Assembly (NCBI GenBank): GCA_003252105.1
Contig: QKDL01000010.1
Coordinates: 1 to 64,000, forward strand
Direction: 5' to 3'
Length of the DNA stretch: 64,000 bases
DNA from: Arcobacter sp.
GTDB lineage: Bacteria; Campylobacterota; Campylobacteria; Campylobacterales; Arcobacteraceae
Below the pieces are notes generated by a model. It was not told the DNA's origin. It saw nothing but the letters and a program-made list of their open reading frames with translations, and did not search any database. The first letter of the stretch is position 1; every line of letters starts with the position of its first letter. Position numbers and translations under genes: made by a program. Positions 2,620 through 27,587 of this stretch are shown here, piece by piece.

Positions 2620-2633
2620 ATTTGGAGATAAAT

Positions 2634-3818
2634 TTGGAAAATATAGATATGTCAAAAAAATTAAACAGTATTAAAAAAAACCCAAAAATAAAAAGTAAAA
2701 AATTTACAGGAGTATACTATCAAAATATTCTTACTAATGGAAGAATAGATAAAAACTTTTTTTTTACATTTAAAGATAAAAATGATTTAAATCAAAATGG
2801 ACAACCAAAATTAAAATGGGTAAAAGTTGGAAAAGAATCTAATGGCATAAATTTAGAAATTACAAATAGAGAAAGAAATTCTCAAATTAGTAAAATGAAT
2901 AGTGGTAAAGATATTACATTAGTTGCAAATAAAAAAAATAAGAAAAAAGAGTTATTAAAGTTTCAAATTCTTGCAGAAAGATATTTTTTAGATAAACAAA
3001 TTACTAAATATAGAGTAAATAGATATAATAATCATATTAAAGGAATTTTTGGACATTTAGATGCTCTAACAATTACAAAAAAACAAATAAAAGATTTTCT
3101 TAATAATTATGCAGTAGTAAATGAACCTGCAACAGTTAATGCAATAAGAGAAATTATAACTGCAATATTTAATCATTCCATAAAAGAGTATGATTTAGTA
3201 ATAAGTAACCCCTGCACAGGAATTCCAAGACTTAAAACAGATAATGAAAGAGAACGATATTTATCATCAGAAGAGATAAAACTACTATTAGATATTTTAA
3301 TGGATAATAAACCAATATGGTTAACAGTTAAACTATCATTATCTACAGGTGCAAGAATAATGAGTATAATTGATTTACAAAAAAAAGATTTAAATTTAAA
3401 TGTAGGGACAGTAACTATTAAGAATTTTAAAACAGGTTCAACTTATAAAGGTTTTTTACAAACAGACTTGATTGAGTTTTTAAAAGAATATACAAGTAAA
3501 ATGAAAATGAATGATTACCTTGTAAGTATCAATTGTGGAGAGAAAGCAACTTTTAAAAATATACAGTGGAGAATTAAACCAATATTAGACAAACTATTTA
3601 ATACAGAACTAGATGCAAATGATAGAAAAAATAGAGTAGTAATTCATACCTTCAGACATACATTTGCTTCTCATTTAGCTATTAATGGTACACCAATTTT
3701 TACAATTCAAAAACTTATGGATCACTCAAAAATAGAACAAACTTTGAGATATGCAAAACTTGCACCAGATAGTGGTAAAGATGATGTTGAAAAACTTTAT
3801 TTAAGAAAGTATAGTTAA
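2634..3818 (+). CDS. int: Tyrosine recombinase (integrase) of the element
   Basis: The protein cuts and rejoins DNA at the att sites to insert or excise the element. The C-terminal catalytic domain has the full set of residues (track numbering): R245 in STGARIMS, a candidate Lys near 267-270, H342-x-x-R345 in HTFRH, H368 in MDHS and the nucleophile Y377. The N-terminal half holds an arm-binding-like region and a core-binding SAM-like region (about 110-190). The track start (TTG 2622) is too early: GGAG at 2624-2627 sits 6 nt before a TTG at 2634, which I take as the start (394 aa). An ATG at 2649 is a weaker alternative. The gene reads inward from attL, and the neighbouring rpsU-derived repeat is its likely target. 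Confidence 0.92.
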   Translation: MENIDMSKKLNSIKKNPKIKSKKFTGVYYQNILTNGRIDKNFFFTFKDKNDLNQNGQPKLKWVKVGKESNGINLEITNRERNSQISKMNSGKDITLVANKKNKKKELLKFQILAERYFLDKQITKYRVNRYNNHIKGIFGHLDALTITKKQIKDFLNNYAVVNEPATVNAIREIITAIFNHSIKEYDLVISNPCTGIPRLKTDNERERYLSSEEIKLLLDILMDNKPIWLTVKLSLSTGARIMSIIDLQKKDLNLNVGTVTIKNFKTGSTYKGFLQTDLIEFLKEYTSKMKMNDYLVSINCGEKATFKNIQWRIKPILDKLFNTELDANDRKNRVVIHTFRHTFASHLAINGTPIFTIQKLMDHSKIEQTLRYAKLAPDSGKDDVEKLYLRKYS

Positions 3819-4414
3819 TTTTTTATCAAAGTTGCTGTGAAACTTAGATTTTCAATTTTTTTATCTTCTGGAACCATAAGTATTGTTGAGTATTTTGTTT
3901 CCTTTTCAGTGATAACTTCAATATTATAAATACCTGGGTAAAGGTCAATATAATTATCTAGGTGAAATTTTTCATTATCAATATCAATTTTATTTCTTTT
4001 AATATCTTTAATTGTTATATTAACTGTTTTTTCTGGAGAACTATCATTTAATTTAAAACTTACACGTTTAATAACACCTAATAAGAAATCAATATTCCTT
4101 TCACTCATACCCATAGCTTGGTAGTTTTTTCTCATTTCTATATCCGAAAAGACTCCTTCTTGTATATAAAGTTTAACTGTTTTTGATGGAAGTTTACTTT
4201 GTTCTTCTTTTGAAAGGTTACTGTAGATTGATAATTTGACTGTTTCTTTTTTAGAATCTTTATATTGGCTAGTAAACTTTTTTACTAGGTCAATTACATT
4301 TCCATAGCCTGTTAAAAAAGGTACTACCGTTGCTAAAAAACTTAATATACTAGTGAATATAATAACTTTTCCAATGATGGTATTAGTAAACTTTTTTATT
4401 TTTTCAAGTATCAT
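3815..4414 (-). CDS. Membrane-anchored protein of unknown function
   Basis: This 199-aa protein has a short basic N-terminus, one clear membrane span (about residues 14-35) and a hydrophilic remainder. Residues about 115-199 are beta-rich and look like a compact extracytoplasmic or cytoplasmic domain; orientation is uncertain. I do not recognise a family. The gene converges on the integrase (4-bp overlap at the ends) and is divergent from the 373-aa gene, so it has its own promoter in the 134-bp gap. It may be cargo or a transfer/immunity factor; this is not supported by any motif. Confidence 0.6.
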   Translation of the reverse strand: MILEKIKKFTNTIIGKVIIFTSILSFLATVVPFLTGYGNVIDLVKKFTSQYKDSKKETVKLSIYSNLSKEEQSKLPSKTVKLYIQEGVFSDIEMRKNYQAMGMSERNIDFLLGVIKRVSFKLNDSSPEKTVNITIKDIKRNKIDIDNEKFHLDNYIDLYPGIYNIEVITEKETKYSTILMVPEDKKIENLSFTATLIKN

Positions 4415-4548
4415 TAGTATCCTTTTTTATTTGATATTTTAGATATAAGATTTAAGTAAATAAATTATAATATTATGATGAAAATTTACTAAGTATTTAG
4501 TTAAGTATATTATAGTAAATAATTTAATTATTAGCCTGGAGATTTATA

Positions 4549-5670
4549 ATGAGTAAATATTTATCTAGAAGTGATGAGATATATAAAGAAATCGAAAGTT
4601 TTGAAAAATATGAATTAACTCATTGTATTGCCTATGAAATGGGAATCAGAAATGAAGAAGTAAAAAAAATCATTAACATATTGGATGATTTAACTTATCT
4701 TAATAAAAATGTTGAAAAGAATAATTTTTTTAATGAGTTTGAAGATAGAAATTTATGGATTAGTATGTTTATTGACATATTAAAAGAATATGATGTATAT
4801 AAATGTTACACATCAGATATAGAGGATATAGATAATATAAATATAAATACATCTTATTCAATAGTTAATAAATTAAAAATGGAATTGGAAGAGAACTATT
4901 TTATTCCGTATGATGGTAGATCAGTTATACTTGAAGGGATGGAAGATGAAATAAATTTAAGTAACTACTTTGAACCTGACAGTTCTCAAAGTCGCCATAT
5001 TAATGAAATTCTTTCAGATAATTCAAAAGACTATTATAAAGATTCTTATAGTGTAGTTGACGGTTATGAAGTATATCAAGGTGCGTATGATGGAGATAAA
5101 AATTTTAACTTCAATAAAATATATCCAAATTTTAAAAGACCTTTGAGAACTTTTAACCAAATGGAATTCCCTATAAACATTTCTTTACCAAAAGAAGAAA
5201 TATTAGCTTATATTGAAAAAATAAAAGATAATTACGATAATAAAAGTTCATCCATTAAAAATATTTTTGAACTATTAGAAGAAGATATCAATATAGATAC
5301 AATCGATTATAAAAATATGTCTGCAAAAGAGTGGGCAGATTGTTTATATATATATGATTACTATAAAGAAAATTTTGAAATATCAAGTAGTATAAAGAAA
5401 GATATTGTAGAAGATATTCAGTTTAAACTTACAAAATATAATGGATTAAAAATAAGAAAAGAAGTAAAAGAAATAAAAAATAAAAAAGATACAAAATATA
5501 AAATAGTTTCTTATGCAGATTATATTAGGAATCATTGTATTGATGACATTGAAGACCTTGATGATGATAAACATTATTATTCATCTAAGACAATTTCTCA
5601 ACGTAATCAATTAATGAAAAAACTTATTGAAGGGAAAAATCCTAAATATAAGGTTTTAGTCTCAAAATAG
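4549..5670 (+). CDS. Hypothetical acidic protein of the element
   Basis: This 373-aa soluble protein is rich in Asp, Glu, Lys, Asn and Tyr. No membrane span, signal peptide or nucleotide-binding motif is visible. A CTGGAG ribosome-binding site lies 10 nt before the ATG, and codon use matches the rest of the element. It precedes the excisionase-like gene by 83 bp in the same direction and could be part of the excision, replication or control module. I cannot name a family. Confidence 0.6.
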   Translation: MSKYLSRSDEIYKEIESFEKYELTHCIAYEMGIRNEEVKKIINILDDLTYLNKNVEKNNFFNEFEDRNLWISMFIDILKEYDVYKCYTSDIEDIDNININTSYSIVNKLKMELEENYFIPYDGRSVILEGMEDEINLSNYFEPDSSQSRHINEILSDNSKDYYKDSYSVVDGYEVYQGAYDGDKNFNFNKIYPNFKRPLRTFNQMEFPINISLPKEEILAYIEKIKDNYDNKSSSIKNIFELLEEDINIDTIDYKNMSAKEWADCLYIYDYYKENFEISSSIKKDIVEDIQFKLTKYNGLKIRKEVKEIKNKKDTKYKIVSYADYIRNHCIDDIEDLDDDKHYYSSKTISQRNQLMKKLIEGKNPKYKVLVSK

Positions 5671-5753
5671 AAAAAACTACCTCTTCTTTTTTTCCAAGCA
5701 CAAAAATTTTCAAAATATTACAATTCTCCTATAACTTTGAAAAGGAGAATCAA

Positions 5754-5954
5754 ATGTCTACAATACTAGAACAATTACAACAAAGACATAAAAAAACATT
5801 GTTATCAAAAAAAGAGGCTGCTAAAGAATTGAGTATTTCAGAAGCAACATTGGATAGAATCAGAAAGACTGGAGAAATAAAAGCTAAAAAAATTGGTGGT
5901 GGTATTTTTTTCACAATAAATGAAATATCTTCATTCTTAGGAGATTTAGGGTGA
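5754..5954 (+). CDS. Excisionase-like helix-turn-helix DNA-binding protein
   Basis: The 66-aa protein has the MerR/excisionase-type winged-helix pattern: LLSKKEAAKELSISEATLDR (residues about 16-35), then a short wing (KAKKIGGGIFF) and a final helix. Such proteins bind att arms and direct excision, or act as small regulators. AAGGAG lies 8 nt before the ATG. Its stop overlaps the GTG start of the ATPase gene by 4 nt, so the two are translationally coupled; it may control the transfer module as well as excision. Confidence 0.75.
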   Translation: MSTILEQLQQRHKKTLLSKKEAAKELSISEATLDRIRKTGEIKAKKIGGGIFFTINEISSFLGDLG

Positions 5955-8425
5955 AAAATACTACTTTGTCATTAAACGAGATTTATATAAATATATTTCC
6001 TCAAATAGGTATAATTTTAGAAGATAATGGTTCAATTTCTATTATTCAAGATAATAAGAAAGAGTTAGTTACTTATAATAAAAAACCATTAATGATGAAA
6101 AACAATGCTATAAATTGTATTTCATTTAATCCTACTACATTAAAGTATAATTGCACTTGTCATATGCTAGAAAATCAAATACTTAAAACTCTTTCATCAA
6201 AAATAAATCTATTATTTATATACTTGATAAAATCTATAATAGATAAGAATCTAATAGAAGAATCTAATACAGAGTTGAATGATCTTGTACTTAGATTATA
6301 TGAGAATAACATTGATTTTGAAGAAGAAAGTATAGATAAAGAAATTTTAGATAAATGGACTGAAATTTATAATATCTTAGAGAATCAAGAATCTAAAAAT
6401 TTATTAATAAAGTTTAATTTTTTTAATACACCAGCCTTTATTAATAGGCCAGAGCATATTAATAATGATGAGTATAATATTGGGGATGATGATATAGTTA
6501 AGTTTTCTTCTCTTCAACCATTTATTAAAGTTACATTTCCACTTTATGAATTATTAGAAGAAGTAAGTGATAATAAATTGTTAGGGCTGACCATTGAAGA
6601 TAAATATACCAGAATATTTAAGTCAATATATGAATATCTTTTTAAAGATATTCATGTAAACAATAGTCATATTTATCCTGAATGTTTTATGTTAAAGGAC
6701 TTTATAAATGATAAGAAATATAAATCAAAAAAGTATACAATTATATCTTGCTATCCAATACGTAGAGCCAAATCATTACTATTATTACGTACATTTGTAA
6801 GTTTAGCAAATAAAATTGATATTTTGTTAAATAGAATTTTATTTCTAGACGAAATAAAAATAGAAAATGAAATGTTTAATTTGTCAATTCCTGAAGAACT
6901 AGTCAAAAACTTTGAAGAAGAAAATGAATATTCAAATGATTGTGAAGATGAAGAAGACTTACGCAATGAGATAAAAAAGATAAATATAGTAAATATTAAG
7001 ATATTGAATAATAACTTGAATAATATAGGCATTAAGAAAAATGATTTAGGATTGCTTTCATATTTGAACAAAAAGAATAGAAATTTTAATAAAAAAAGAA
7101 GACTAACACTTTTTGATGCACCTAATATTGATAATCTAATAACTTTAGATCCTAAAATATTGTTAGATCCTGATAAAGAAGATTTTAATGAATTCATTCC
7201 AAAAGAGGAAAGATTAAATCATACTTTATCTCTAGGAGCATCAGGGACAGGCAAATCTGAACTTATCAAAACATTGCTATACAATGATATTCAAAAAAGT
7301 GAATCAAGTATAGTTCTTTTAGATCCTCATGGAGATTTAGCCTTTGAAGTCAGTAGGATGATTAAAGAAAAGAAAAGATTGATATATATTGACTTAGATA
7401 TTTGTAAAGATAAAATATTTACTATAAATCCTTTTGACATTAAAAGTAAGGATGAAAGTGTTATTTCAACTATGACACAAGAATTGTTAAGTGCTTTAGA
7501 AGTTGGACTTGATATTGAATGGTCAAATAATATGGAGGCAATATTAGAGCCTTGTATTTCAACACTATTAAGAAAAGGTGATACAGATTTATATGAACTT
7601 CAAAGATTTATGGAAGACAGTAAAAATGAAGATTTGGTTGAGTTAGGTAAAAAAAGTCCAATAAAAGGACATAGAGAGTTTTTTTATAGTTATTTTAAAA
7701 AAGAAAAATTTACAGTTTCAAAAGATGCAATTGCTATAAAACTTCAAGTATTATTAAATAATCCAACTTTATCAAATTCAATTACAGGAAAAAGCACTAT
7801 TGATTTGGAAAAAGAGATTAATACTAAAGGGAAAGTTATTATATTTAAATTGTCAAAAGGAAAAATGAAAAAAGCATTTAACCTTTATAATAAATTAATA
7901 ATGGCAACAATCCAAGGGATAGTATTAAGAAGAGCAAATATATCAAAAGATTTAAGAACTAGTACACATCTTTATATAGATGAATTTAAAAATTTTATAG
8001 GTTCTACTATCGAAGAAATTTTAACAGAATCTAGAAAGTATAAACTTTTCCTAACTTTTGCAAATCAATCACTATCTCAAATTGATAAGAGATTAAGAGA
8101 TATTGTTCTAAGTAATACAAACATAAAAATTATTGGTAAAAATTCAAATGAAAACCTTAGATTAATGGGTAAGGAAATACAAGTGGATATTAATAAGTTA
8201 GAAAATTTGAATAGAGGTGAGTTTTTTCTGAAAGTAGGTACTAGTGAATCTATCAAAATACAAAATACAGACAAGTTTATTGGGGATAAAGCAGTTATTA
8301 ATAATAGTTTGTGGGAAGAGTATTTAGAGTATCAGTTTAAAAACTATTATAGAAATATAGCTGATGAGAATAATCAATTAGAGCTTAAGGAAAAAAATCT
8401 GAAGCCATTACTAGAAGACTTTTAG
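5951..8425 (+). CDS. HerA/VirD4-like DNA-pumping ATPase (coupling-protein-like)
   Basis: The 824-aa protein has a large unassigned N-terminal region (about 1-400) and a C-terminal RecA-fold motor of the FtsK/HerA/VirD4 group. It shows Walker A GASGTGKS at residues 429-436, the typical LLDPHGDLA strand just after, Walker B LYIDEFKNF near 675, and a TraG/TraD-like C-terminal part (NQSLSQIDKRLRDIV, then a GEFFLKVG strand). Such hexameric motors move DNA during conjugation or partition. No N-terminal membrane anchor is obvious, so a cytoplasmic HerA-type role is possible. Start: GTG at 5951, with AGGAG 7 nt before it, overlapping the upstream stop. The replication-relaxation-like gene follows 22 bp later. 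Confidence 0.8.
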   Translation: MKNTTLSLNEIYINIFPQIGIILEDNGSISIIQDNKKELVTYNKKPLMMKNNAINCISFNPTTLKYNCTCHMLENQILKTLSSKINLLFIYLIKSIIDKNLIEESNTELNDLVLRLYENNIDFEEESIDKEILDKWTEIYNILENQESKNLLIKFNFFNTPAFINRPEHINNDEYNIGDDDIVKFSSLQPFIKVTFPLYELLEEVSDNKLLGLTIEDKYTRIFKSIYEYLFKDIHVNNSHIYPECFMLKDFINDKKYKSKKYTIISCYPIRRAKSLLLLRTFVSLANKIDILLNRILFLDEIKIENEMFNLSIPEELVKNFEEENEYSNDCEDEEDLRNEIKKINIVNIKILNNNLNNIGIKKNDLGLLSYLNKKNRNFNKKRRLTLFDAPNIDNLITLDPKILLDPDKEDFNEFIPKEERLNHTLSLGASGTGKSELIKTLLYNDIQKSESSIVLLDPHGDLAFEVSRMIKEKKRLIYIDLDICKDKIFTINPFDIKSKDESVISTMTQELLSALEVGLDIEWSNNMEAILEPCISTLLRKGDTDLYELQRFMEDSKNEDLVELGKKSPIKGHREFFYSYFKKEKFTVSKDAIAIKLQVLLNNPTLSNSITGKSTIDLEKEINTKGKVIIFKLSKGKMKKAFNLYNKLIMATIQGIVLRRANISKDLRTSTHLYIDEFKNFIGSTIEEILTESRKYKLFLTFANQSLSQIDKRLRDIVLSNTNIKIIGKNSNENLRLMGKEIQVDINKLENLNRGEFFLKVGTSESIKIQNTDKFIGDKAVINNSLWEEYLEYQFKNYYRNIADENNQLELKEKNLKPLLEDF

Positions 8426-8447: not shown

Positions 8448-9299
8448 ATGTATTTAAAAGATAAAGAAATTGAAGTAATTGAATTATTAGCAAAGTTTAA
8501 ATTTTTGACCTCTTCTCAATTTGTAAAATTAGAAGTATATAAAAATAGGGGAGATGTAACAAACTTTTTAAAAGAAATAATAAAACAAAAGCGACCAATA
8601 GTTGATAAAATTGTATTTTCAACAGATCCTCAAAAAGGTAAATTAGAATACATTTATTATTTAACTAAATATGGGGAAAAGGTATTGGTTGAAGATTTAG
8701 ATTATTCTATTGACATGATAAAGAAAATTCCTAAAAGTAAACCAATATCTACAAAAGATTACTTTCATAGAAAAAGTACTATTGATTTCTACATATATTT
8801 AAGTCAGTGGTTAAATAATGTTCAGGGTGAGATTCTTTTTTTGAATTATTATTTTGATAAGGTTGGTAGTACCAAAGGAAAAGAAAATAATTACACCCAA
8901 GGTTTAAATAGACTTTTTCTAGATAATGGCAAATCATTTATTCCAGATATTATTACAAAATTTAAAGTTAACAATGAAGAATATCTTTTTTTATTTGAAC
9001 AACATAATGGAACTGATGTTAAGAGATTAATAGTACAACTATATATTCATCGTCAAGCAATATTAGAAAGAATTGCATCTAAAAAATATGATTTTAATAA
9101 ATCAAATAGAGTTGTTGTTATTTGTGAATTTGGGAAGGTTAAGAACAATGTTATTAAAAAATTACAGAAAATTGATGATTTTAAAGAGTTTTATAATTTC
9201 TTTATTTTTAAAACTAATGAAGAGTTAAAAGAGGACTTTTTTAATAATTGGATGTTGATCAACAATCAGCAAGTTAATTTTATTCAAAAAATGCAATAG
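8448..9299 (+). CDS. Replication-relaxation-like winged-helix protein
   Basis: The 283-aa protein begins with a winged-helix region (IEVIELLAKFKFLTSSQFVK) and a wing containing IYYLTKYGEKVLVED. An alpha/beta domain follows (YFHRKSTIDFYIYL, then FIPDIITKF and YLFLFEQHNGTD), resembling the PD-(D/E)XK-like tail seen in replication-relaxation family proteins. These often sit next to HerA/FtsK-like ATPases in plasmids and integrative elements and are thought to bind the origin or transfer site. Here it follows such an ATPase by 22 bp with a GGGGG-rich ribosome-binding site. The family call rests on pattern recognition. Confidence 0.65.
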   Translation: MYLKDKEIEVIELLAKFKFLTSSQFVKLEVYKNRGDVTNFLKEIIKQKRPIVDKIVFSTDPQKGKLEYIYYLTKYGEKVLVEDLDYSIDMIKKIPKSKPISTKDYFHRKSTIDFYIYLSQWLNNVQGEILFLNYYFDKVGSTKGKENNYTQGLNRLFLDNGKSFIPDIITKFKVNNEEYLFLFEQHNGTDVKRLIVQLYIHRQAILERIASKKYDFNKSNRVVVICEFGKVKNNVIKKLQKIDDFKEFYNFFIFKTNEELKEDFFNNWMLINNQQVNFIQKMQ

Positions 9300-9642
9300 A
9301 TATTTTGGTATCTTACCTTTTTGGGTAAGATACACATTACCTATTTTGTACCACATTTTGAAGACTATTATGTAAACTAGTTGAATATGCAAGTGCACTC
9401 CTAGTACTAGGATATATAGAGGATGTTTTTTAATTCAAATATATTAATCTCTATCTTAAATTTAATTTAGTTTTTTATTAAGTTGCGTTCCAATATTTTT
9501 ACAATGAGACTAAGTTAAGAAATGATAATGATATATTATTAGTGCTTTTGGTTTAGACTTAAAATATTTTATTATAAAATCTTATTTGTTACAAGTTAGA
9601 TTTATAAAAGACTACTAATGCTTGAGGAATTATAATACAATT
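9300..9642. other. Intergenic region between converging genes, with a 10-bp-stem hairpin
   Basis: A perfect inverted repeat, GTATCTTACC and GGTAAGATAC with a 6-nt loop (9308-9333), lies 8 bp after the winged-helix gene. It lacks a T tract, so it is a weak or Rho-independent-like terminator or a 3' end protector. The rest is AT-rich, contains the left copy of the cassette-flanking repeat (9478-9500), and shows no ORF I would defend. Confidence 0.6.
9478..9500 (+). repeat. Left copy of a 23-bp imperfect direct repeat flanking the nuclease/STAND cassette
   Basis: TTAAG, four variable bases, then GTTCCAATATTTTT. The same arrangement recurs at 15768-15790 (19 of 23 identical, same orientation). 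The two copies enclose exactly the two minus-strand genes 9643-15666. Confidence 0.6.
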
Positions 9643-12600
9643 TTAATCTATAGCTGACTTTGTACTATGTCTTAAGTTATCACTTATTAAAAAACTATCG
9701 ATGAGGTCTAAAATTTTCTCTTTCTTTTCATTAGACTTTGTTCTTGTATTAAGTTCCAGAATAAATTCTATTAATGGTTTTGAATCATAATAGCTAACTT
9801 CTTTTTCATTATCTATATTCTCTATTAATCCTTCTAGAAGTTCAAATATTTTATCACTTAGTCCAGTATCTGAATAATACTCATTTTGAAGATACTCAAT
9901 AAAGCTTTTTACTTCTCTTCGAATATGTAAAGATGAAACCAAAGCTTTTATAAAATTAAAATCATCTTGAATAAAATTTAAACCATTCATTTTAGTTAAA
10001 CTTAGAGTATAAAAATAGTCGTTTTTTTCATTGTTTTTAAACTTCAAAATAAACTGTTTTGATATTTCAATTTTACGTTTATCTTTTGAATGTAATTCCT
10101 CTTCAAAGATTTGATGTAATATTCCATGAATTACTTTACTGTTCAAGGATATAGATTCATTAAGTAGTTCTTCAAAAATTATATTTTTCTTTGTTAGATA
10201 ATAATAAAATAAAAACATTCCTAAATTATTAACATAATTAGTATCTTCACCATCATTTACTAGAATGATAAATGATATACATTTTTTAATATATACTATT
10301 AATTGTTCTTCTGATACAAAGTTATTCAAATACAAATAGTGAAAGTTTTGTAAAGAGTAGATTGAGACTTGTCCTACTGTGTCATTATCTATTATTTTTA
10401 ATAAGAATTCAGCAAATTTTCCTTGATTAACTGACTCAATACTTCCTAATGTTCTTAATAATCCAAATATAACAAAGTCAATATTTTTAGTAATTACTTC
10501 ATTTATTAAAAATTCAACTCTATTTTTCAAATTATCATTTATATATACATATTTATAAACTACTGGTAATAATTCAGCAAAGTCACCTTCAAAAGAGTTA
10601 ATAGAACTAGTCATATGATCATGAATTGTTTGAAATTTATTCTCTTCTCTTATGATTCCTTCATAATGAATATTTTTATTATTCTCTAAAAATTCTATAA
10701 GTTTTTCATCAAAAACTTTTTTTTCTAATAAATATTTAATAGCCTTCAATATTGTTCGTTTTAACCAGTTATCGTTTACATGAGAATATTTGTGAATAAT
10801 GTTTAGAATTTTATTTTCATCGTAGTTTGCTGCAAGCAAACCATTCAAACCAGCAGATAGATAATCAGGATGCACTTCCTCTTGTTCCAAAATTAATAGA
10901 AAAGGATAAAATCTATCAGGATTTTTAATGATTTCTTTTTCAAATTGCCTATAATGTTCTGTTTTTCCTCCTCTTAAAAAATCTCTATCATTTTTTCGTG
11001 ATTTTTTACCATCAAAAACTTTCATTGATTGAAGCCAATTATTTAAACTCATTTTTGAATAAACACTACTATCTAAAGGTGTGCCTACCCAACCTCCTTT
11101 AGATTTATGAGGTTTTTCAAATTTATACCAATGAAATTTTCTTTGTAACTCCTGGTACTCTTTAATATAATTAAATTTTTTTATATCTTCCTTATCAATC
11201 TGACATAAAAGTTCATATTTCTTTAATCCTCTATATTTGCCATTATACTTTCCTGCTGACCATCTATTTTGCCATTTTGGACTAACTTGAATTATTGTAT
11301 TAAATACTTCTTTTTGCTCTTGTTCGTCAAAGAACTTAAATGATTTATTTAGAAGTAATGCAAATTCATATCCATTATCATAATCTAAATCTAATTCTTC
11401 TAAAAGCTTTTTATTTGTGAGTAAAGTAAAAATTTCATTTTTATATTCTTTAGGACTTTGTGAATAACCAAATATAAGAAATGTAATCAAAGATGAATGA
11501 TTGATATTTTTATATGGGCTTATTAATTTCAAAAATTCTTCTTTATCATTTAGTGCTAATGCTGTAACTGATTTAAGTGTTTTCCCATACAATGCCCATG
11601 TACTGTTATGTAAGTCATCAAACTGCCACATTAAATAATCAAAGACCTTATCAGTAATTAAAAACTCTTTTTTTGAATATTCATTTTTAAACTTTTTACT
11701 TATTTTATATATTGCTGATAAATTCATTTCTAATATCTTAATATTATTTTGTTTTATCAAAAATTTGAATATTTCATACCAATCATGATTTAATACTTCT
11801 TTTCTATCTGTATCATCAATTTCATTAATTCTTAAATCTAGGAAATTAAAAAATAAATTGATTGCATATTCTTCATCAATTGAATAAACTTTTTTATATA
11901 GTTTCTCTAAACTAAATCTAGCAAAGTTATCTTCATATATTAAACTTTCATATTTTTTAAAAATATTAAAATTATAATCATCCCAACTATCTAATCTTTC
12001 TAAAGAATGCATTATAGCTTCACTTTTAATTTTTATATTACAGCCACAAGTATCTAATATTTCAAATACTAAATTACTTTTTGAATTAACAAATGTCTCT
12101 AATCTATATTGTAAGTTATATTGTTCAAAGTTTTTGTCGGTAAAGAAATTTGCTTTTTTAAAGGAAATTAGCCAGTCAGAAGAAATCCAACTTTCAATAA
12201 AATACCTCTCATATTTCTTGTCATGTTGAAATAAGTTTTGAATAAAATTGAATTCTTTATCAGTTGGGTTATCAAGACTTCCTAAGTAAGATACTAATAG
12301 TAGTTTAATGTGAAACCTGACTTTATCTGAATAAATTATATTCTCTAATTCTAATAAATACTTTTCTTCATCAGTTCCTCTTAAAAACTGAATTATTTGT
12401 TTAAATTGTTCTCTAATACTTAAATCTTGACTTGTAGTTAATATATAGTCATATAAAGACATCTCCTTTTGAGCAAAGTTTCTTGCAAAAGCATAATCAT
12501 AAAAAGTTTGATGGAAAAAAGAAATTTTATTTCCTTCTTTATTTAAAATATTTTTACTTTGGAGAATATTTAATTCATCTTCATATTCATCTTGATAGTG

Positions 12601-13920
12601 TAAAATAGGTACTTCAATTTTTTTAAGACTATTCATTTTTTCAACTATTGAATTTAAAAGTTTAATCATCCTTATTCTTATACTCTTATCAATTTCTTTA
12701 TCTTGAATTTTTTGTTCCCAAAGTTTGTCATATAAATCTTGTAAAGTTTTAATAGATATACAACTATTATCAATTGGATATAACTCAATAAAAATTGAGA
12801 GATGTAAAGGTAATCTCAGTAGTTCAATTAATGTTTTATTTATCTTTTCAGATTCTTTAATAAATAATTTTAATTTTTCATTTACATATTCAAAACTTAA
12901 CAACTGAATGCTAACAATATTTGAATTATCTAAACTTTTAAATAAAGGGTCATTCTTTAAATCATATTCTCTAATTGAAACAATTATTTTGACATTTGAA
13001 ATATATTTTAGTTGTTCTATAAACTCTAATATTATATTGACTGTTTTTTTATTTGATGACATGGTTAATGAAAGAGCATCAAGTTGGTCTATAAGTATAA
13101 TTACTTGTTCTTTTCTTGATAATTGTCTAATAGAATGTAGAATATTTTCTACTGCAAAGAATTTTGAGAAAGAATTTTTATCTTCAATATCAAACTTGTC
13201 ACATTTAATACTTAAGTAAGTGGTCTTATTTTGAATTAAATCATTTTGTATTTTACTAAGGATAGCTGTTTTCCCAATGCCTGGTTTTCCCGTTAATACA
13301 AGTAAATCATCTTCAAAATCATTACTATTAATAAAGTCATTAATATTATTTATTTCAGGCATTTTTATAAAACTATTTTGGATATATAGATTTTGAGAGG
13401 ATAGTAAAGTTAGTGAGTTTTCTTGAAATCTTTCTTTTATATCATTTTCAGACAATATATTTTTATCAAATATTTCGGGATAATACTTCTTTGCAACATT
13501 TAGATGTATTTCAAGGAGCCCTTCAATTTCTTCCCAACTCCAAGAGATAACACTAAATCCATATTTAGTTGATAAATCTACAGCTTTATCTTGTATTACA
13601 GTATCTTGTTTATATGAATTTGCAAAAATAAATGTATCTATATTAGTAAACTTTTTACTTGCAGATATTACTTCATTTTCAATATCTTCAAGAAGTTCTT
13701 TCTTTATTTTTTGTTCATCTCTTATAATAAACTTATTTTTACATTGATAAACAATTTGTTTTTTATTACTTGAAAAAGAAATGCCATCTATACCATTTTG
13801 ATTTTGACCTTTTCTTCCATAAACTTGGAACTCTATACCAAATTTTTCTATACATAAATCATTTACTAAAGATTCAAACTCTTTTTCATCTTTTAAAGGT
13901 GGAAATTGATATTTACTCAT
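9643..13920 (-). CDS. Nuclease-STAND NTPase, Avs-like candidate antiviral sensor
   Basis: The 1425-aa protein has three parts. Residues 1-150 form a Mrr-like PD-(D/E)XK nuclease: E15/E16, GQNQNGIDG with D45, and YQCKN with Q59 and K61. Residues about 200-480 are a STAND/NACHT-like ATPase: Walker A GKPGIGKT at 211-218, Walker B VIILIDQLDAL near 273-283, IIVSIREYD as a sensor strand, RLPLHL, and FFHQTFYDYAFA as the winged-helix signature. The remaining ~900 residues are helical repeats. Nuclease-STAND-repeat order and size match antiviral Avs proteins, which bind a phage protein and then cut DNA. Subtype cannot be set without comparison. The 567-aa gene lies 42 bp upstream in the same operon. 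A ribosome-binding site AGAAGAG precedes the ATG. Confidence 0.75.
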   Translation of the reverse strand: MSKYQFPPLKDEKEFESLVNDLCIEKFGIEFQVYGRKGQNQNGIDGISFSSNKKQIVYQCKNKFIIRDEQKIKKELLEDIENEVISASKKFTNIDTFIFANSYKQDTVIQDKAVDLSTKYGFSVISWSWEEIEGLLEIHLNVAKKYYPEIFDKNILSENDIKERFQENSLTLLSSQNLYIQNSFIKMPEINNINDFINSNDFEDDLLVLTGKPGIGKTAILSKIQNDLIQNKTTYLSIKCDKFDIEDKNSFSKFFAVENILHSIRQLSRKEQVIILIDQLDALSLTMSSNKKTVNIILEFIEQLKYISNVKIIVSIREYDLKNDPLFKSLDNSNIVSIQLLSFEYVNEKLKLFIKESEKINKTLIELLRLPLHLSIFIELYPIDNSCISIKTLQDLYDKLWEQKIQDKEIDKSIRIRMIKLLNSIVEKMNSLKKIEVPILHYQDEYEDELNILQSKNILNKEGNKISFFHQTFYDYAFARNFAQKEMSLYDYILTTSQDLSIREQFKQIIQFLRGTDEEKYLLELENIIYSDKVRFHIKLLLVSYLGSLDNPTDKEFNFIQNLFQHDKKYERYFIESWISSDWLISFKKANFFTDKNFEQYNLQYRLETFVNSKSNLVFEILDTCGCNIKIKSEAIMHSLERLDSWDDYNFNIFKKYESLIYEDNFARFSLEKLYKKVYSIDEEYAINLFFNFLDLRINEIDDTDRKEVLNHDWYEIFKFLIKQNNIKILEMNLSAIYKISKKFKNEYSKKEFLITDKVFDYLMWQFDDLHNSTWALYGKTLKSVTALALNDKEEFLKLISPYKNINHSSLITFLIFGYSQSPKEYKNEIFTLLTNKKLLEELDLDYDNGYEFALLLNKSFKFFDEQEQKEVFNTIIQVSPKWQNRWSAGKYNGKYRGLKKYELLCQIDKEDIKKFNYIKEYQELQRKFHWYKFEKPHKSKGGWVGTPLDSSVYSKMSLNNWLQSMKVFDGKKSRKNDRDFLRGGKTEHYRQFEKEIIKNPDRFYPFLLILEQEEVHPDYLSAGLNGLLAANYDENKILNIIHKYSHVNDNWLKRTILKAIKYLLEKKVFDEKLIEFLENNKNIHYEGIIREENKFQTIHDHMTSSINSFEGDFAELLPVVYKYVYINDNLKNRVEFLINEVITKNIDFVIFGLLRTLGSIESVNQGKFAEFLLKIIDNDTVGQVSIYSLQNFHYLYLNNFVSEEQLIVYIKKCISFIILVNDGEDTNYVNNLGMFLFYYYLTKKNIIFEELLNESISLNSKVIHGILHQIFEEELHSKDKRKIEISKQFILKFKNNEKNDYFYTLSLTKMNGLNFIQDDFNFIKALVSSLHIRREVKSFIEYLQNEYYSDTGLSDKIFELLEGLIENIDNEKEVSYYDSKPLIEFILELNTRTKSNEKKEKILDLIDSFLISDNLRHSTKSAID

Positions 13921-13962
13921 TAACTCTTCTTAATATTTTTTTACTACCATTTATAATGCGAC

Positions 13963-15666
13963 CTAATTAATTATTGTTTCAATTCTATAATTTCTTGTCT
14001 GAATATAATTAGGAACATGTTCAAAAAATGTATAATTATCTTTTAATGTTATTTTTTTATCTTTTTCTATTATAGTTGAATTTAATAAATATTCAATAGT
14101 CTCATCCAGCTTTTCTATTTCTAAAACCTCACTAGATTGTGTAATTGAATCTAATTCATGCAAATTTTGTGCTGTATTAAATCTCAACCCATATTGTAAG
14201 ATATTTCTAAAACTATTCCAATCATATAGAATAACATTTTCTATTTGCTGAAAATCAAATAGAGGCATGGTATGTAGTAAAATAAGATGTGTGTTATCTA
14301 AATTTATTTGGCTTAATCCAATTTGTTCAAGTTCTATCTTTAACTTATTATCCTTGTTGTAGAAATAACTAAATGAGTTTAGTTGTTTAACACCCTTATC
14401 AATCAAGTCTTTACTATTACAATAATGATATACTTCTTCTTTTAAATATGCTTTTGCATAAGTTGAATGTTTTGCTTGTATTAAAAAATATTTCTTTCTA
14501 ACTTTATCTACTAAAATGAAATCAATATCTAACTTAATTTTTTTCTCATCTATTTCATCTGTAAAAGTTTTATCAAATCTATAAATATCATAATTTTCAA
14601 ATTCTTTTTTCTGACTATTAATATAATTAAAAATATATTCTTCAAAAATGAAACCTTTTTTTTGATTAAAAGTGTTCTTATTTTTAGATTTCATATAATC
14701 ATTAAAGTACATTCTCATAACATAATCGTAAGCAGTACCATCTATGAAGGATATATTATTCCCTTTTATTTTAAAACCTTTATTTAGATTAGTTTTTAGA
14801 TTACTTTCATATATTATCAGATTTAAAAAATCATTATCAAGTCCTATTTGAGAGAATCTTTTATTATTTTTTAAATGAATTTTACTTTTTGAATAATATC
14901 CATACAATAGATATGCAAAAAATATGCAAAGATTGTTCATATATATTAATGCCTCTAACTCAAAATTCTTATGGTGAATATAATTTTTATTAAAATAAAA
15001 AACTCTATCAAAAAGGAAAGTACTTAAACTTTTTATATAATCGTTTATGTTATTAACTCCACCTTCCATGAAAATCTTATGATTTAGAACTGAACTATAT
15101 TCAAAACTTGATTTATCCCAATTTATTGCCATCCATCTTTTTTTTAAAAGTGTTTTTAGTTCTGGTGTTGGTAATATTGATATTGTGTTCTTATCCATTT
15201 TTAATTCAGCACTATTTAACAATACATAAAAAATTACTTCTTTCAAGTATACAAAAGCTAAAGCAAGTGAAATATCATCTATATTAATCTTATTATTTCC
15301 ATTAAATATATCAATATTATATTCATCAATTATATAATCTAAACAGTATAAAAGAAATCCAGGAAAATAGTCTTGATTACTCTGAATATACATTTTTAAT
15401 TGTTTTATATTTCCTTCATTTAAGATTTTTATAGTGTTTTTAATATTATGTTTTAATTGTAATTGTAATAGGAATACCTCTTTATATAAAATTCTACGTA
15501 TATATTGTTGTTTCTTTTTGGTTGAGAAAAAACTTAATATTTTGTCTAATGAGTTGTTTTTTTTAGTAGCTTCTGGTAAAAATTTTAATATGTCATCAAG
15601 TATTTTCTCATTTAAAAAAGCTTTTCCTTTTGTAGATAATATTTTTATGTCGGTGTGAAAAAACAT
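13963..15666 (-). CDS. PD-(D/E)XK-like protein paired with the STAND nuclease
   Basis: The 567-aa protein is first in the minus-strand operon. Most of it is helical and unassigned. Residues about 330-430 resemble a PD-(D/E)XK fold: an acidic residue in KLDIDFILVD followed by a strand ending in LIQAKHS (the Q-x-K form of the motif), then helices and DNTHLILLHTMP. The catalytic pattern is suggestive, not proven. The partner 1425-aa gene also carries a nuclease domain with a Q-x-K motif. Together they may be a two-gene defence system; a modulator or second effector role for this protein is inference from position only. Confidence 0.5.
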   Translation of the reverse strand: MFFHTDIKILSTKGKAFLNEKILDDILKFLPEATKKNNSLDKILSFFSTKKKQQYIRRILYKEVFLLQLQLKHNIKNTIKILNEGNIKQLKMYIQSNQDYFPGFLLYCLDYIIDEYNIDIFNGNNKINIDDISLALAFVYLKEVIFYVLLNSAELKMDKNTISILPTPELKTLLKKRWMAINWDKSSFEYSSVLNHKIFMEGGVNNINDYIKSLSTFLFDRVFYFNKNYIHHKNFELEALIYMNNLCIFFAYLLYGYYSKSKIHLKNNKRFSQIGLDNDFLNLIIYESNLKTNLNKGFKIKGNNISFIDGTAYDYVMRMYFNDYMKSKNKNTFNQKKGFIFEEYIFNYINSQKKEFENYDIYRFDKTFTDEIDEKKIKLDIDFILVDKVRKKYFLIQAKHSTYAKAYLKEEVYHYCNSKDLIDKGVKQLNSFSYFYNKDNKLKIELEQIGLSQINLDNTHLILLHTMPLFDFQQIENVILYDWNSFRNILQYGLRFNTAQNLHELDSITQSSEVLEIEKLDETIEYLLNSTIIEKDKKITLKDNYTFFEHVPNYIQTRNYRIETIIN

Positions 15667-15767
15667 TTTATTTCCTTTTTATAATTATAGTAAATAATCA
15701 AAATTTTTTAAAAAAAGTGTCATTTTGTAATATTTTAATTTAATTATTCAACATACTTAATTTTCAA

Positions 15768-15790
15768 TTAAGAGCAGTTCCAATATTTTT
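15768..15790 (+). repeat. Right copy of the 23-bp cassette-flanking repeat
   Basis: Matches 9478-9500 at 19 of 23 positions, including an unbroken 14-bp GTTCCAATATTTTT. It lies 102 bp before the start of the cassette's first gene, inside a 233-bp AT-rich gap that must also contain that gene's promoter. Confidence 0.6.
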
Positions 15791-15899
15791 TTATGTAAAA
15801 ATATGTATCTCAAAAACATTTCATCTACATATCATCAATCCGATAAGAGTCAAGTAGTCTTTTAAAAACAAAAAAGATTAAAAACTAAAAGGAGAAAAA

Positions 15900-16019
15900 A
15901 TGATTGTAGATAAAGAAGCCATCCATTCCAAACCTCAAGAGATAATAAAAAAGCTTTTAAGATGTACTTTTAAACAAAGTGCAAACAATAAAAACTTTCA
16001 ACCATTAAAAGGAGCCTAA
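15900..16019 (+). CDS. Short ORF (39 aa) at the head of the recombination operon
   Basis: Below the track's length limit. It begins ATG ATT GTA GAT after an AAAAGGAG ribosome-binding site and encodes a basic peptide (MIVDKEAIHSKPQEIIKKLL...) without a recognised domain. Its stop abuts the next ATG (TAAATG), so the two short ORFs look translationally linked. It may be a leader peptide or a small regulator. Confidence 0.45.
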   Translation: MIVDKEAIHSKPQEIIKKLLRCTFKQSANNKNFQPLKGA

Positions 16020-16103
16020 ATGATTCCACCTAATGTATTACTAACCATAGTTATTGCAACAGCAACCATAATCAAAGAATCACTAGATAGTGAAGATAAA
16101 TAG
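16020..16103 (+). CDS. Short ORF (27 aa), possible membrane peptide
   Basis: Below the track's length limit. AAAAGGAGCC lies directly before its ATG, which begins one base after the previous stop. The peptide (MIPPNVLLTIVIATATII...) has a 15-residue hydrophobic stretch and an acidic tail, as in small single-span membrane peptides. It precedes the DUF932 gene by 57 bp. Confidence 0.45.
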   Translation: MIPPNVLLTIVIATATIIKESLDSEDK

Positions 16104-16160
16104 CTTTTAAAAAACTACAAAAACTCTTAGTAAAAAAATAAACAATAAAAAGGAAAAACA

Positions 16161-16976
16161 ATGTCAGTAAATGTAAAACCATTAAGTAATGAGAAGTTGT
16201 ATGAAGTTGCACCAACACTTTTTACTCAAAGAGCTCATGGTGATGTAAGTGAAAAATATCACTTTATTCCAACAATAGATGTGATTGAAGAGATAAAAGC
16301 ACATAATTGGCATCCAGTTAGTGTAAGTCAAGCAAATGTTAGAGATTTAGAAAAGGAAGGTTTCCAACAACATTGTGTCAGATTTAGACACTTTGAAGAT
16401 TTTTTAAACCCACAAGATAATGCAGTTGAATTGTTACTGTTTAATTCTCACGATAGAACTAAAGCATTTAGTATAAGTGCAGGTATCTTTAGATTTGTAT
16501 GTAGTAATGGTCTTGTTATCTCAGATAGTGTATTTGAAAGCTATAAGATAAGACACTTAGGTTCTAAAGATAATGATGTAGCAAATGCTATTTTAAAAAT
16601 AACAGCTATAAAAGATAAACTCCTTGAAAAAGTAAATAAATTGTCTTCTATTACACTAAATGAAAAAGAGAAACAATCTTTTGCTAAATCAACTATACCT
16701 TTAAGATTTGAAGAACATTTAGAAGTAGATGCAAATGATTTATTACTTCCACATAGAGATGAAGACTTAAAAGATGATTTATACACAACACTAAATGTTA
16801 TCCAAGAAAATCTAATTAGAGGAAATATTAGTGGAGTAAATAAACAAACTAATAGAAAATTTACTTCTAAACAAATAACTTCAATCTCTACAGATGCAAA
16901 ACTAAATAAATCCTTGTGGGATATGGCTGAAACAATTGCATCTATTAAAGATACTAGTTATGAAATAGCAGCATAA
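16161..16976 (+). CDS. DUF932 domain protein (phage/plasmid-like)
   Basis: The 271-aa protein matches the DUF932 family in layout: an N-terminal region with FIPTIDVIEEIKAHNWHPVSVSQ, a middle region with HCVRFRHFED, a GIFRFVCSNGLVISD core near residue 115, and a helical end. Members are common on plasmids, prophages and integrative elements, often beside recombination genes; their biochemical role is not firmly known. An AAAAGGAA site precedes the ATG. Followed by the Gp157-like gene after 10 bp, so it heads a three-gene operon. Confidence 0.8.
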   Translation: MSVNVKPLSNEKLYEVAPTLFTQRAHGDVSEKYHFIPTIDVIEEIKAHNWHPVSVSQANVRDLEKEGFQQHCVRFRHFEDFLNPQDNAVELLLFNSHDRTKAFSISAGIFRFVCSNGLVISDSVFESYKIRHLGSKDNDVANAILKITAIKDKLLEKVNKLSSITLNEKEKQSFAKSTIPLRFEEHLEVDANDLLLPHRDEDLKDDLYTTLNVIQENLIRGNISGVNKQTNRKFTSKQITSISTDAKLNKSLWDMAETIASIKDTSYEIAA

Positions 16977-24119: not shown

Positions 24120-25106
24120 ATGGCAAAAGCATCACAGCTAAAAGCACTTATCAAGTCACATTATGACAATGATTATACCAGATTTGATACTTTATCATTA
24201 CAATTAGCTGCACATGAAGCTACTTTGGGTCATAATTCCTTAGCATTAGAAGTTAAAAAGCTTGTTGATAAATCAAAAGAGAGTAGAACACCAGAATCAA
24301 TCAACTCTAAAAATATTAGATTATATAATAACACGATAGATGAGTTATTTATTCATTCTAGACCTATTTTAGATATGTATGATATTATTCTTCCTCGTTC
24401 AAACCAAGATAAAATATTGAAGATACTAAGTGAATATAATAATCAAGAAAAGTTAAAAAAACATGGTTTGAAACATAGAAGAAAAATCCTATTGTCTGGA
24501 CACCCTGGTACAGGTAAAACTATGACTGCATCAGTTATAGCTTCAGAACTACATTTACCTTTATATGTAATTCAAATAGATAAAATTATTACAAAGTTCA
24601 TGGGTGAAACAGGTGCAAAATTAAGACAAATATTCAAAATGATAGAAATGCAAAAGGGTGTTTATTTTTTTGATGAATTTGATTCTATAGGTACAGATAG
24701 AAGTAAAGATAATGAAGTTGGAGAAATGAGAAGAGTATTAAACTCATTTTTACAATTTTTAGAAAATGATAACTCTGATAGCTTAATATTAACTGCTACA
24801 AATAATATATCTTTATTGGACAGAGCTTTATTTAGAAGGTTTGACGACATCTTGTACTATGACATACCAACAAAAGATGAAATACTAAAACTTTTAAAAT
24901 TGAGATTTCAAGCATTTACAGTTAAGTTTGATTTATCTGGAGTTTTAGCTAAAGCATCTGGATTAAGCCATGCAGATATCGTGAAATCTTGTGATGATGC
25001 TATTAAAGAAGCTATTATCAATGATAAAAAGTATATTTCTAAAACATCATTGATAAATAATTTTCAAATTATAAAAGAATCATATAAAAAAATCAGTGAG
25101 TCGTAA
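24120..25106 (+). CDS. ietA: IetA-like AAA+ ATPase of an ietAS defence pair
   Basis: The 328-aa protein is a single AAA+ ATPase with a ~115-residue N-terminal region. It has Walker A GHPGTGKT at 127-134, Walker B VYFFDEFDS at about 181-189, sensor-1 Asn in TATNN (228-229) and an arginine-finger pair in ALFRRFDD (239-240). The order is like FtsH/spastin-type ATPases without a fused protease. The gene is followed after 3 bp by an S8 protease gene; this pairing and order is the ietAS system described as antiviral in bacteria. The ATPase probably remodels or presents substrate to IetS. An AGGAGGA site precedes the ATG. Confidence 0.82.
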   Translation: MAKASQLKALIKSHYDNDYTRFDTLSLQLAAHEATLGHNSLALEVKKLVDKSKESRTPESINSKNIRLYNNTIDELFIHSRPILDMYDIILPRSNQDKILKILSEYNNQEKLKKHGLKHRRKILLSGHPGTGKTMTASVIASELHLPLYVIQIDKIITKFMGETGAKLRQIFKMIEMQKGVYFFDEFDSIGTDRSKDNEVGEMRRVLNSFLQFLENDNSDSLILTATNNISLLDRALFRRFDDILYYDIPTKDEILKLLKLRFQAFTVKFDLSGVLAKASGLSHADIVKSCDDAIKEAIINDKKYISKTSLINNFQIIKESYKKISES

Positions 25107-25109
25107 GAT

Positions 25110-27587
25110 ATGCCTGATTTACGACCCATATTTATTAGTGAACAATATAAAACTGACATAAAATTCACATCACCTCAAGGAGGAGGTGGTGACTCATCAT
25201 TACCTTACAGAAATGTAAGTAGTCATGGTAATAAATTATATGGGAAATTAGAAACTCTTTTAAATATCCAAAACAAACAAATAATAGAAAATGACTCTTT
25301 AAATAAAGGTATTTATTTAGAGGTTTCTGGGACACAAGAATGTGAGTTAAATATTGAATCACTTGAAAATATACCAAGAGAGATTAGATTAGCAAATTTT
25401 AAAAATTCTTATCCTCAGAAAGCTACATTTTTTTTACCATTAGAAGAAAGAGATTTTTTAGAAAAGAAAATAATTGAATATACAAATAAAGTAACAGCAA
25501 AAGGAAATCCTAAACATAATAACCTAATAGCTACAATAGAAGATTTTAAAACTGCAACGATTAGTTCATTTTGGAATGGTAAAGAAGACAAAGTACCTAC
25601 CGATATTAAAGTGTGGTGTGAAGTATGGTTAATCAATAATAAAGATACTCATGAGGTAGATGTTATTTCAAGATTTGAAAATATTGCTCAAACTCATGGT
25701 ATAGAAATACAAATAGAATCAAATATAAAGTTTCCTGAGAGAATAATAACTTTAGCAAAATTAAATGCAGAAGATATTTTAAATCTGATTAATTCTTATC
25801 CGTATCTAGCTGAAATTAGACCTTATTCAACTCCTAATATAGCTTACACAAGTATTGAATATAGTGAACAGAAAGAATGGGTTCATGAACTAAAAGATAG
25901 AGTTATTGTAAATTCAGATAGTAATGTTTCTGTATGTATTTTAGATACAGGAGTAAATAATATTCATCCATTACTGGAAGATATTTTACTAGATGAAGAT
26001 AAGCATACGTATTTAACATCATGGGGTATAGATGATCATGATAGTCATGGCACAGAAATGAGTGGAATAGTTGCTTATGGAAATTTAAATGAACATTTAA
26101 CTGGTCTATTAGATATTGAATTGAATCATACTTTATCATCTTATAAAATACTACCTCCAACAGGAAGTACCGAGAAAAGCTTATGGGGATATATTACAGA
26201 ACAAGCTGTTGCAACTAGAGAAATTGAAAAGCCTAATAAAATACATATATATTCGATGTCTGTTACTGCTAAAGATACAGATGGTGATGTATTAGATGGT
26301 ACACCAAGTTCATGGTCATCTGCAATAGATAATATATTATTTAATAGTGATACTAAAAAACTTTTTTGTATTTCAGCAGGTAATGCAGATATAGATGATG
26401 TATCATTTACATATATGGCAAGTAATATAATATCTCCTATAGAAAATCCAGCCCAATCTTGGAACTCTCTAGTCATTGGAGCTTTTACAGAAAAAGATTC
26501 AATAACAGATGAAGATAATGAATATATTGATTATGATGTAATAATGGCAAAAAAAGATGAAGTATCACCATTCACAACAACTTCTCGCCTATGGGATAAG
26601 CAATGGTGTATAAAGCCTGATATTGTATTTGAAGGTGGAAATCTTTTACTAGATACAATGAGAAATGATAAAACTGCTCATGAAGATTTGTCCCTTTTGA
26701 CAACACATTCAGATGTTAGACGAGATTTAATTACTTGGACTTATGCAACTAGTGCAGCAAATGCATTAGGAGCTAATTTTGTAGCAAGATTATATTCTTC
26801 CTTTCCAGAAGCAACACCTGAAACAATTAGAGGATTAGTTATTCATTCTGCTAATTGGACAGATAATATGTTTGAACAATTTAAAGAGAGTTCTGATTCT
26901 GATAAGGATGTGTATAAGAAGCTGTTAAGAAGTTGTGGCTATGGAGTACCTAGTTTTGATAAAGCAGTTAATTGCTACACAAATAGTTTAACATTAATTG
27001 CTGAAGATACTATTCAACCATTTATTAAAGTTGGTAGTGATGTAAAAACAAACGTGATGAATCTTTATGAACTACCATGGCCAAGAGAAGCTCTAGAAGA
27101 GTTAGGCTCTCAAGAAGTAGAAATGAGAGTTACTCTTTCTTATTTTATAGAACCAGCTCCTACAGAAATGATTGTAAGTAATTTTAATCGATATAATTAT
27201 CCCTCTCATGGATTAAGATTTGAAGTAAATCATCCAACTGAAGATATTGAGCAATTTAAAACTAGATGTAATAAACATGGAAGAAATAAGGAATTTAGAC
27301 CCAGTGGACTTAGTACTAGAGATTATTGGAAAATAGGTAAAAATACCAGAGATAGAGGAAGTATGATATCTGATGTATGGAAGGGTACGGCTGTAGATTT
27401 GGCTTCTTGTAATCACATAGCTGTTTTTCCAATAAATGGATGGTGGAGAACAAGAGAATACTTAGGAGCTTATGAGAATGTGGCTCGATATACATTAATT
27501 GTAAGTATATATTCGCCATCACAAGAGACAGATATATATACACCTGTAAAAGTTCAGGTCGAAACGCCAATAGCAATAGAAACATAA
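25110..27587 (+). CDS. ietS: IetS-like subtilisin-family (S8) serine protease
   Basis: The 825-aa protein has an unassigned N-terminal region (about 1-265) and a subtilase domain. The triad is complete: D279 in ILDTGVN, H313 in DSHGTEMSG and S548 in TYATSAAN, with the oxyanion-hole N425 in SAGNAD. There is no signal peptide, so it works in the cytoplasm, consistent with a regulated defence protease. The C-terminal ~250 residues are beta-rich (MRVTLSYFIEP) and may hold a sensing or inhibitory domain. It follows ietA after 3 bp. The serine motif is ATSAA, not the usual GTSMA. Confidence 0.83.
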   Translation: MPDLRPIFISEQYKTDIKFTSPQGGGGDSSLPYRNVSSHGNKLYGKLETLLNIQNKQIIENDSLNKGIYLEVSGTQECELNIESLENIPREIRLANFKNSYPQKATFFLPLEERDFLEKKIIEYTNKVTAKGNPKHNNLIATIEDFKTATISSFWNGKEDKVPTDIKVWCEVWLINNKDTHEVDVISRFENIAQTHGIEIQIESNIKFPERIITLAKLNAEDILNLINSYPYLAEIRPYSTPNIAYTSIEYSEQKEWVHELKDRVIVNSDSNVSVCILDTGVNNIHPLLEDILLDEDKHTYLTSWGIDDHDSHGTEMSGIVAYGNLNEHLTGLLDIELNHTLSSYKILPPTGSTEKSLWGYITEQAVATREIEKPNKIHIYSMSVTAKDTDGDVLDGTPSSWSSAIDNILFNSDTKKLFCISAGNADIDDVSFTYMASNIISPIENPAQSWNSLVIGAFTEKDSITDEDNEYIDYDVIMAKKDEVSPFTTTSRLWDKQWCIKPDIVFEGGNLLLDTMRNDKTAHEDLSLLTTHSDVRRDLITWTYATSAANALGANFVARLYSSFPEATPETIRGLVIHSANWTDNMFEQFKESSDSDKDVYKKLLRSCGYGVPSFDKAVNCYTNSLTLIAEDTIQPFIKVGSDVKTNVMNLYELPWPREALEELGSQEVEMRVTLSYFIEPAPTEMIVSNFNRYNYPSHGLRFEVNHPTEDIEQFKTRCNKHGRNKEFRPSGLSTRDYWKIGKNTRDRGSMISDVWKGTAVDLASCNHIAVFPINGWWRTREYLGAYENVARYTLIVSIYSPSQETDIYTPVKVQVETPIAIET

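Follow-up and report, generated by a model that had tools for sequence, protein, structure and literature searches.

An Avs4-like nuclease-STAND protein and a neighboring orphan gene in a cargo slot of an Arcobacter mobile element

A mobile element of Arcobacter sp. (contig QKDL01000010.1; the 64,000-nucleotide stretch analyzed here is called the window) holds two adjacent genes, one encoding a 1425-aa nuclease-STAND-helical-repeat protein and the other a 567-aa orphan protein. Judged by its sequence and predicted structure, the 1425-aa protein is an undescribed but ordinary Avs4-like single-gene defense protein. We consider it likely that this protein works by itself as an Avs4-like immune sensor and that the 567-aa gene is separate cargo, the two sharing at most a transcript.

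The 1425-aa gene (9643..13920) and the 567-aa gene (13963..15666) match the list of open reading frames exactly, lie on the minus strand, and are separated by 42 nt. No terminator-like site was found in 9200-16300, including between the two genes. Because of this spacing and the lack of a terminator-like site, the cotranscription asserted by the initial annotation is likely. The GC contents of the 1425-aa gene (23.3%) and the 567-aa gene (21.6%) resemble those of the surrounding element genes.

The Mrr-like nuclease, STAND, and repeat layout first proposed for the 1425-aa protein holds, with conserved residues, Pfam matches, and a structure model all contributing. The N-terminal Mrr-like PD-(D/E)XK nuclease domain covers residues 1-160 (13441..13920, minus strand). 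In an alignment of homologous nuclease domains, D45 (within a GIDG motif) and Q59-C60-K61 are invariant in 8/8 sequences, and K61, the residue singled out earlier for mutation, is the lysine of this invariant triplet. The Pfam Mrr_cat model matches four of the eight homologues (best, 1.6e-4) and does not match the window's own protein; a nuclease-domain profile compared with PDB sequences gave chance matches only. The STAND NTPase and winged-helix region extends over about residues 206-570 (12210..13305, minus strand) and is recognized by the Pfam models AAA (2e-8), nSTAND3 (2.9e-8), and NPHP3_N, all above the cutoff, with NACHT falling slightly under it. Within this region, the Walker A lysine K217, D278, D281, R317, and H470 are invariant throughout a STAND alignment of 24 homologues. 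The C-terminal helical-repeat region, about residues 571-1425 (9643..12209, minus strand), is the presumed ligand sensor, and helices are present in the structure model up to residue 1190. Neither Pfam nor PADLOC gave a match to an MBL or protease domain in the 1425-aa or the 567-aa protein.

An AlphaFold model of residues 1-1190 was built on the 24-member alignment and has a mean pLDDT of 84. Its N terminus is predicted to adopt the helix-strand order of PD-(D/E)XK nucleases, and the helical repeats come after the STAND domain. In the PDB, the fold comes closest to the complex of Avs4 with phage portal (8dgf_B, E value of 9.5e-19; 8dgf_A, 2.3e-18), followed by animal NLRs (NLRP9 at 4e-8, others weaker); the match to Avs5 (9nc9) is weaker, at 3.2e-5. 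Global superposition of the multidomain Avs4 on the model is poor (TM score of 0.25, root mean square deviation of >30 Å, 13% identity), and the Avs4 match therefore lies in how the domains are ordered and in local structure; it does not indicate close similarity. When viral structures were searched by fold, the matches were all of AAA or helicase type except for one NLR-like protein encoded by a phage. The reading of this protein as an Avs-type sensor, which the initial annotation had offered, is supported by the Avs4 fold match and by the presence of a known defense system, IetAS, on the same element.

Other Campylobacterota yielded six close orthologues of the 1425-aa protein (65-69% identity): G096; G272 (L025/L036, Sulfurovum); G185 (L026/L038, Sulfurovaceae); G301 (Sulfurospirillaceae), where one gene is split over two contigs (L027 and L028); L035 (Sulfurimonas); and L040 (Arcobacter). 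Each sits amid different neighbor genes. Two further homologues at 38-43% identity (L039 and G004, the latter identical to L041) are either disrupted or truncated at the end of a contig. The G004 homologue (38% identity; L029, 12512-16587) contains several stop codons and is apparently a decaying copy. Distant relatives at 20-35% identity occur in Bacteroidota, and in six of these (L049, L052, L053, L066, L068, and L072) an LmuA-like nuclease domain replaces the Mrr-like one, with E values down to 6.5e-23. The STAND cores of L072 and L076 match Avs4 models (3.3e-10 and 7e-10), that of some Bacteroidota relatives matches the Avs2 model (1.5e-6), and Hachiman and Septu-like genes adjoin some relatives. 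As read from these sequences, the swapping of effectors on one STAND core is typical of defense STANDs; together with the defense genes that neighbor the relatives, it fits what a defense family shows.

The 567-aa protein contains the Q-x-K motif reported in the initial annotation, as IQAK at residues 396-399, preceded by LDID at 379-382. Q-x-K alone is weak evidence because the protein contains five such motifs. A putative PD-(D/E)XK core near residues 337-400 is fitted by E342/E343, D380-x-D382, and Q397-A-K399. Shuffling the 567-aa sequence reproduces the complete D-x-D...(E/Q)-x-K pattern with its hydrophobic context in 0.3% of cases, and among the other open reading frames that were checked, only a truncated copy of this gene contains it; the pattern was defined post hoc, with the 567-aa sequence already in view. 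Searches of Pfam, NCBIfam, and PHROGs returned no match, the PADLOC match was marginal (typeIV_Cas11, 0.022), and a single-sequence AlphaFold prediction was uninformative (pLDDT of 32). No relatives were found in plasmids, phages, or viral contigs, in genome contigs of close relatives or 16 genomes of the genus, or, beyond short chance matches, across the order or the phylum (397-399 genomes). Two sets of candidates with E values of 5e-5 to 5e-3 were judged to be chance matches: short TPR-like/AAA matches in G299, G329, G395, G520, and G210 and C-terminal matches of ~75 residues in 180-aa frames of G310, G316, and G460. Of the earlier PD-(D/E)XK reading, then, the motif is upheld, a family match is lacking, and the fold prediction is silent; that the orphan is a PD-(D/E)XK nuclease is plausible on its sequence but unproven.

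The element that carries the two genes encodes, in order, an integrase (2622-3818 in the window), a TraD-like protein, a Replic_Relax protein, the segment with the 1425- and 567-aa genes, a DUF932 protein, a Gp157-like protein, and Rad52. The Pfam-identified Replic_Relax (8448..9299, plus strand) and DUF932 (16161..16976, plus strand) genes are backbone genes that form the left and right borders of a cargo slot, and the backbone order is kept in two related elements, L089 (in G345) and L091 (in G217). In both of these, the distance from Replic_Relax to DUF932 is only ~640 bp and neither gene is present; the slot is empty, and both genes therefore lie in an inserted cargo segment. In another related element, L090, the slot after Replic_Relax holds a 413-aa AAA_14 ATPase instead (2902-4143, minus strand). 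Sequence comparison revealed an imperfect direct repeat at the cargo edges, with the left copy at 9467..9500 and the right copy at 15757..15790 (plus strand), including 14 exact nt (GTTCCAATATTTTT at 9487-9500 and again at 15777-15790). An exact 14-mer common to both flanks occurred in 0.9% of Markov null pairs. The repeat was not seen in the empty sites of L089 and L091 and is therefore not used as proof of joint entry. Going by their 42-nt spacing, shared orientation, and joint flanking by the short direct repeat, the two genes may have come in together.

A second slot lies behind a WYL regulator. In the window's element, it holds IetAS (24120-27587, plus strand), a known two-gene defense system, with an IetA ATPase (4.3e-69) and an IetS subtilase (5.9e-32). 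In L091, the corresponding slot contains methylase and specificity genes. In L089, a nuclease-protease pair (an LmuA-type MBL nuclease with a protease of the trypsin-like kind) and LmuB follow the WYL regulator (2881-7511, minus strand), a Lamassu-like setting. By its gene content, the window's mobile element is a carrier of defense cargo.

Whether the two genes form one system was weighed on the homologous loci. The initial annotation had put forward a two-gene defense system with the 567-aa protein as partner and had named the gene's absence from homologous loci as the refuting check. The gene was missing beside all of the readable orthologues (6/6, a small sample); upstream of each of the six lies something else, often on the opposite strand. 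A search of their genomes (12 entries, some of which represent the same genome) yielded no relative of the 567-aa protein either, and such an empty answer is weak evidence when no positive control accompanies it. Since the 567-aa gene is absent beside every orthologue examined, the loci do not support a new two-gene system, and the gene is probably cargo separate from the 1425-aa gene. A true two-gene system, in which one lineage gained the 567-aa nuclease as an additional effector, or as a regulator, that the STAND protein activates, would account for the shared orientation, the 42-nt gap without a terminator, and the enclosure of both genes in one inserted segment flanked by the 14-nt direct repeat (0.9% in the null). 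It also has a precedent in the MBL nuclease upstream of protease-fused Avs1, LmuA, or HamA (PMC12799240), although the partner in that precedent belongs to protease-fused, not nuclease-fused, proteins. Set against these points are the solo orthologues and the STAND protein's own nuclease domain, which is intact and keeps its catalytic residues invariant, and we regard such a system as unlikely. It is similarly improbable that the Avs4-like sensor, with its own nuclease, switches on the 567-aa protein as a further nuclease specific to this lineage, or as a regulator, which would make the locus a dual-nuclease STAND system.

Separate cargo leaves room for a finer claim, that the 567-aa protein serves as a single-gene defense nuclease in its own right, functionally unrelated to its neighbor and stored in the same slot. 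The PD-(D/E)XK-like motif, the location in a slot of a defense-carrying element, and the want of any link to the STAND family speak for it; the failure of every collection searched to yield a homologue, and the unusable fold, speak against it. We give it somewhat less than an even chance. That the 1425-aa protein is instead a STAND regulator with no role in phage defense appears very unlikely: it carries a nuclease effector domain, effectors are swapped among its relatives, its fold matches Avs4, and its element is rich in defense genes.

Under the preferred reading of a self-contained sensor beside separate cargo, a mechanism can be proposed by analogy with Avs4. Avs1-4 cut phage and host DNA upon recognizing phage terminase or portal (PMC12931631). 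The C-terminal helical repeats of the 1425-aa protein would bind a phage protein, and its STAND domain would bind ATP and oligomerize. Oligomerization would bring the N-terminal Mrr-like domains together, and the resulting DNA cutting would kill or arrest the infected cell. The 567-aa gene, possibly encoding a nuclease, would have entered the same slot separately. The domain layout, the conserved catalytic residues, the resemblance to the Avs4 fold, the solo orthologues, and the empty slots are observed; phage sensing, oligomerization, and DNA cutting, as well as the independence of the 567-aa gene, are what we infer.

These results extend Avs4-like nuclease sensors to the Campylobacterota, where the gene is rare and has differing surroundings in different families. 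They also tie PDC-M54, a candidate family, to the fold of Avs4 and show that one STAND core swaps Mrr-type and LmuA-type nucleases. For annotation, they counsel caution, in that operon neighbors in a defense cargo slot are not to be taken as system partners.

Among known systems, the 1425-aa protein is most like Avs4 (AVAST type 4; 8dgf), with which it shares the fold order of N-terminal nuclease, STAND ATPase, and C-terminal helical repeats and which outranks every other PDB match by some ten orders of magnitude in E value. Avs4 systems consist of a single gene. The two proteins differ in sequence (about 13% identity), and none of the PADLOC Avs models, Avs4 included, matched the 1425-aa protein at an E value of ≤1; we therefore file it as Avs4-like, not as Avs4. 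Its best PADLOC match is component A of the candidate family PDC-M54 (1.8e-14), a match confined to the STAND core (profile positions 318-610 of 1621). The same model matches 22/24 members of the STAND family alignment, and a literature search for PDC-M54 found no paper naming it. The best sequence relative in the PDB is a solved "AAA family ATPase" of 1523 aa (9n00/9n01/9yix; phmmer, 2e-14 over residues 193-569), which the family profile matches at 2.5e-38; a literature search found no paper describing 9n00, and the resemblance to the 1425-aa protein lies mainly within the STAND core.

Avs5 (AVAST type 5) has an nSTAND3 domain and C-terminal repeats (PMC12931631), as does the 1425-aa protein, but its effector is a Sir2 NADase in place of the Mrr-like nuclease. 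In Avs1 and the Lamassu/Hachiman nuclease-protease pairs, an MBL nuclease is encoded just upstream of the protease-fused Avs1, LmuA, or HamA protein (PMC12799240), and the putative nuclease of 567 aa recalls this arrangement, in which a nuclease with a gene of its own lies upstream of a defense gene. In those pairs, however, the partner is a nuclease of the MBL fold that acts together with a trypsin-like protease, whereas the 567-aa neighbor has PD-(D/E)XK-like character, and the STAND protein in the window bears a nuclease of its own.
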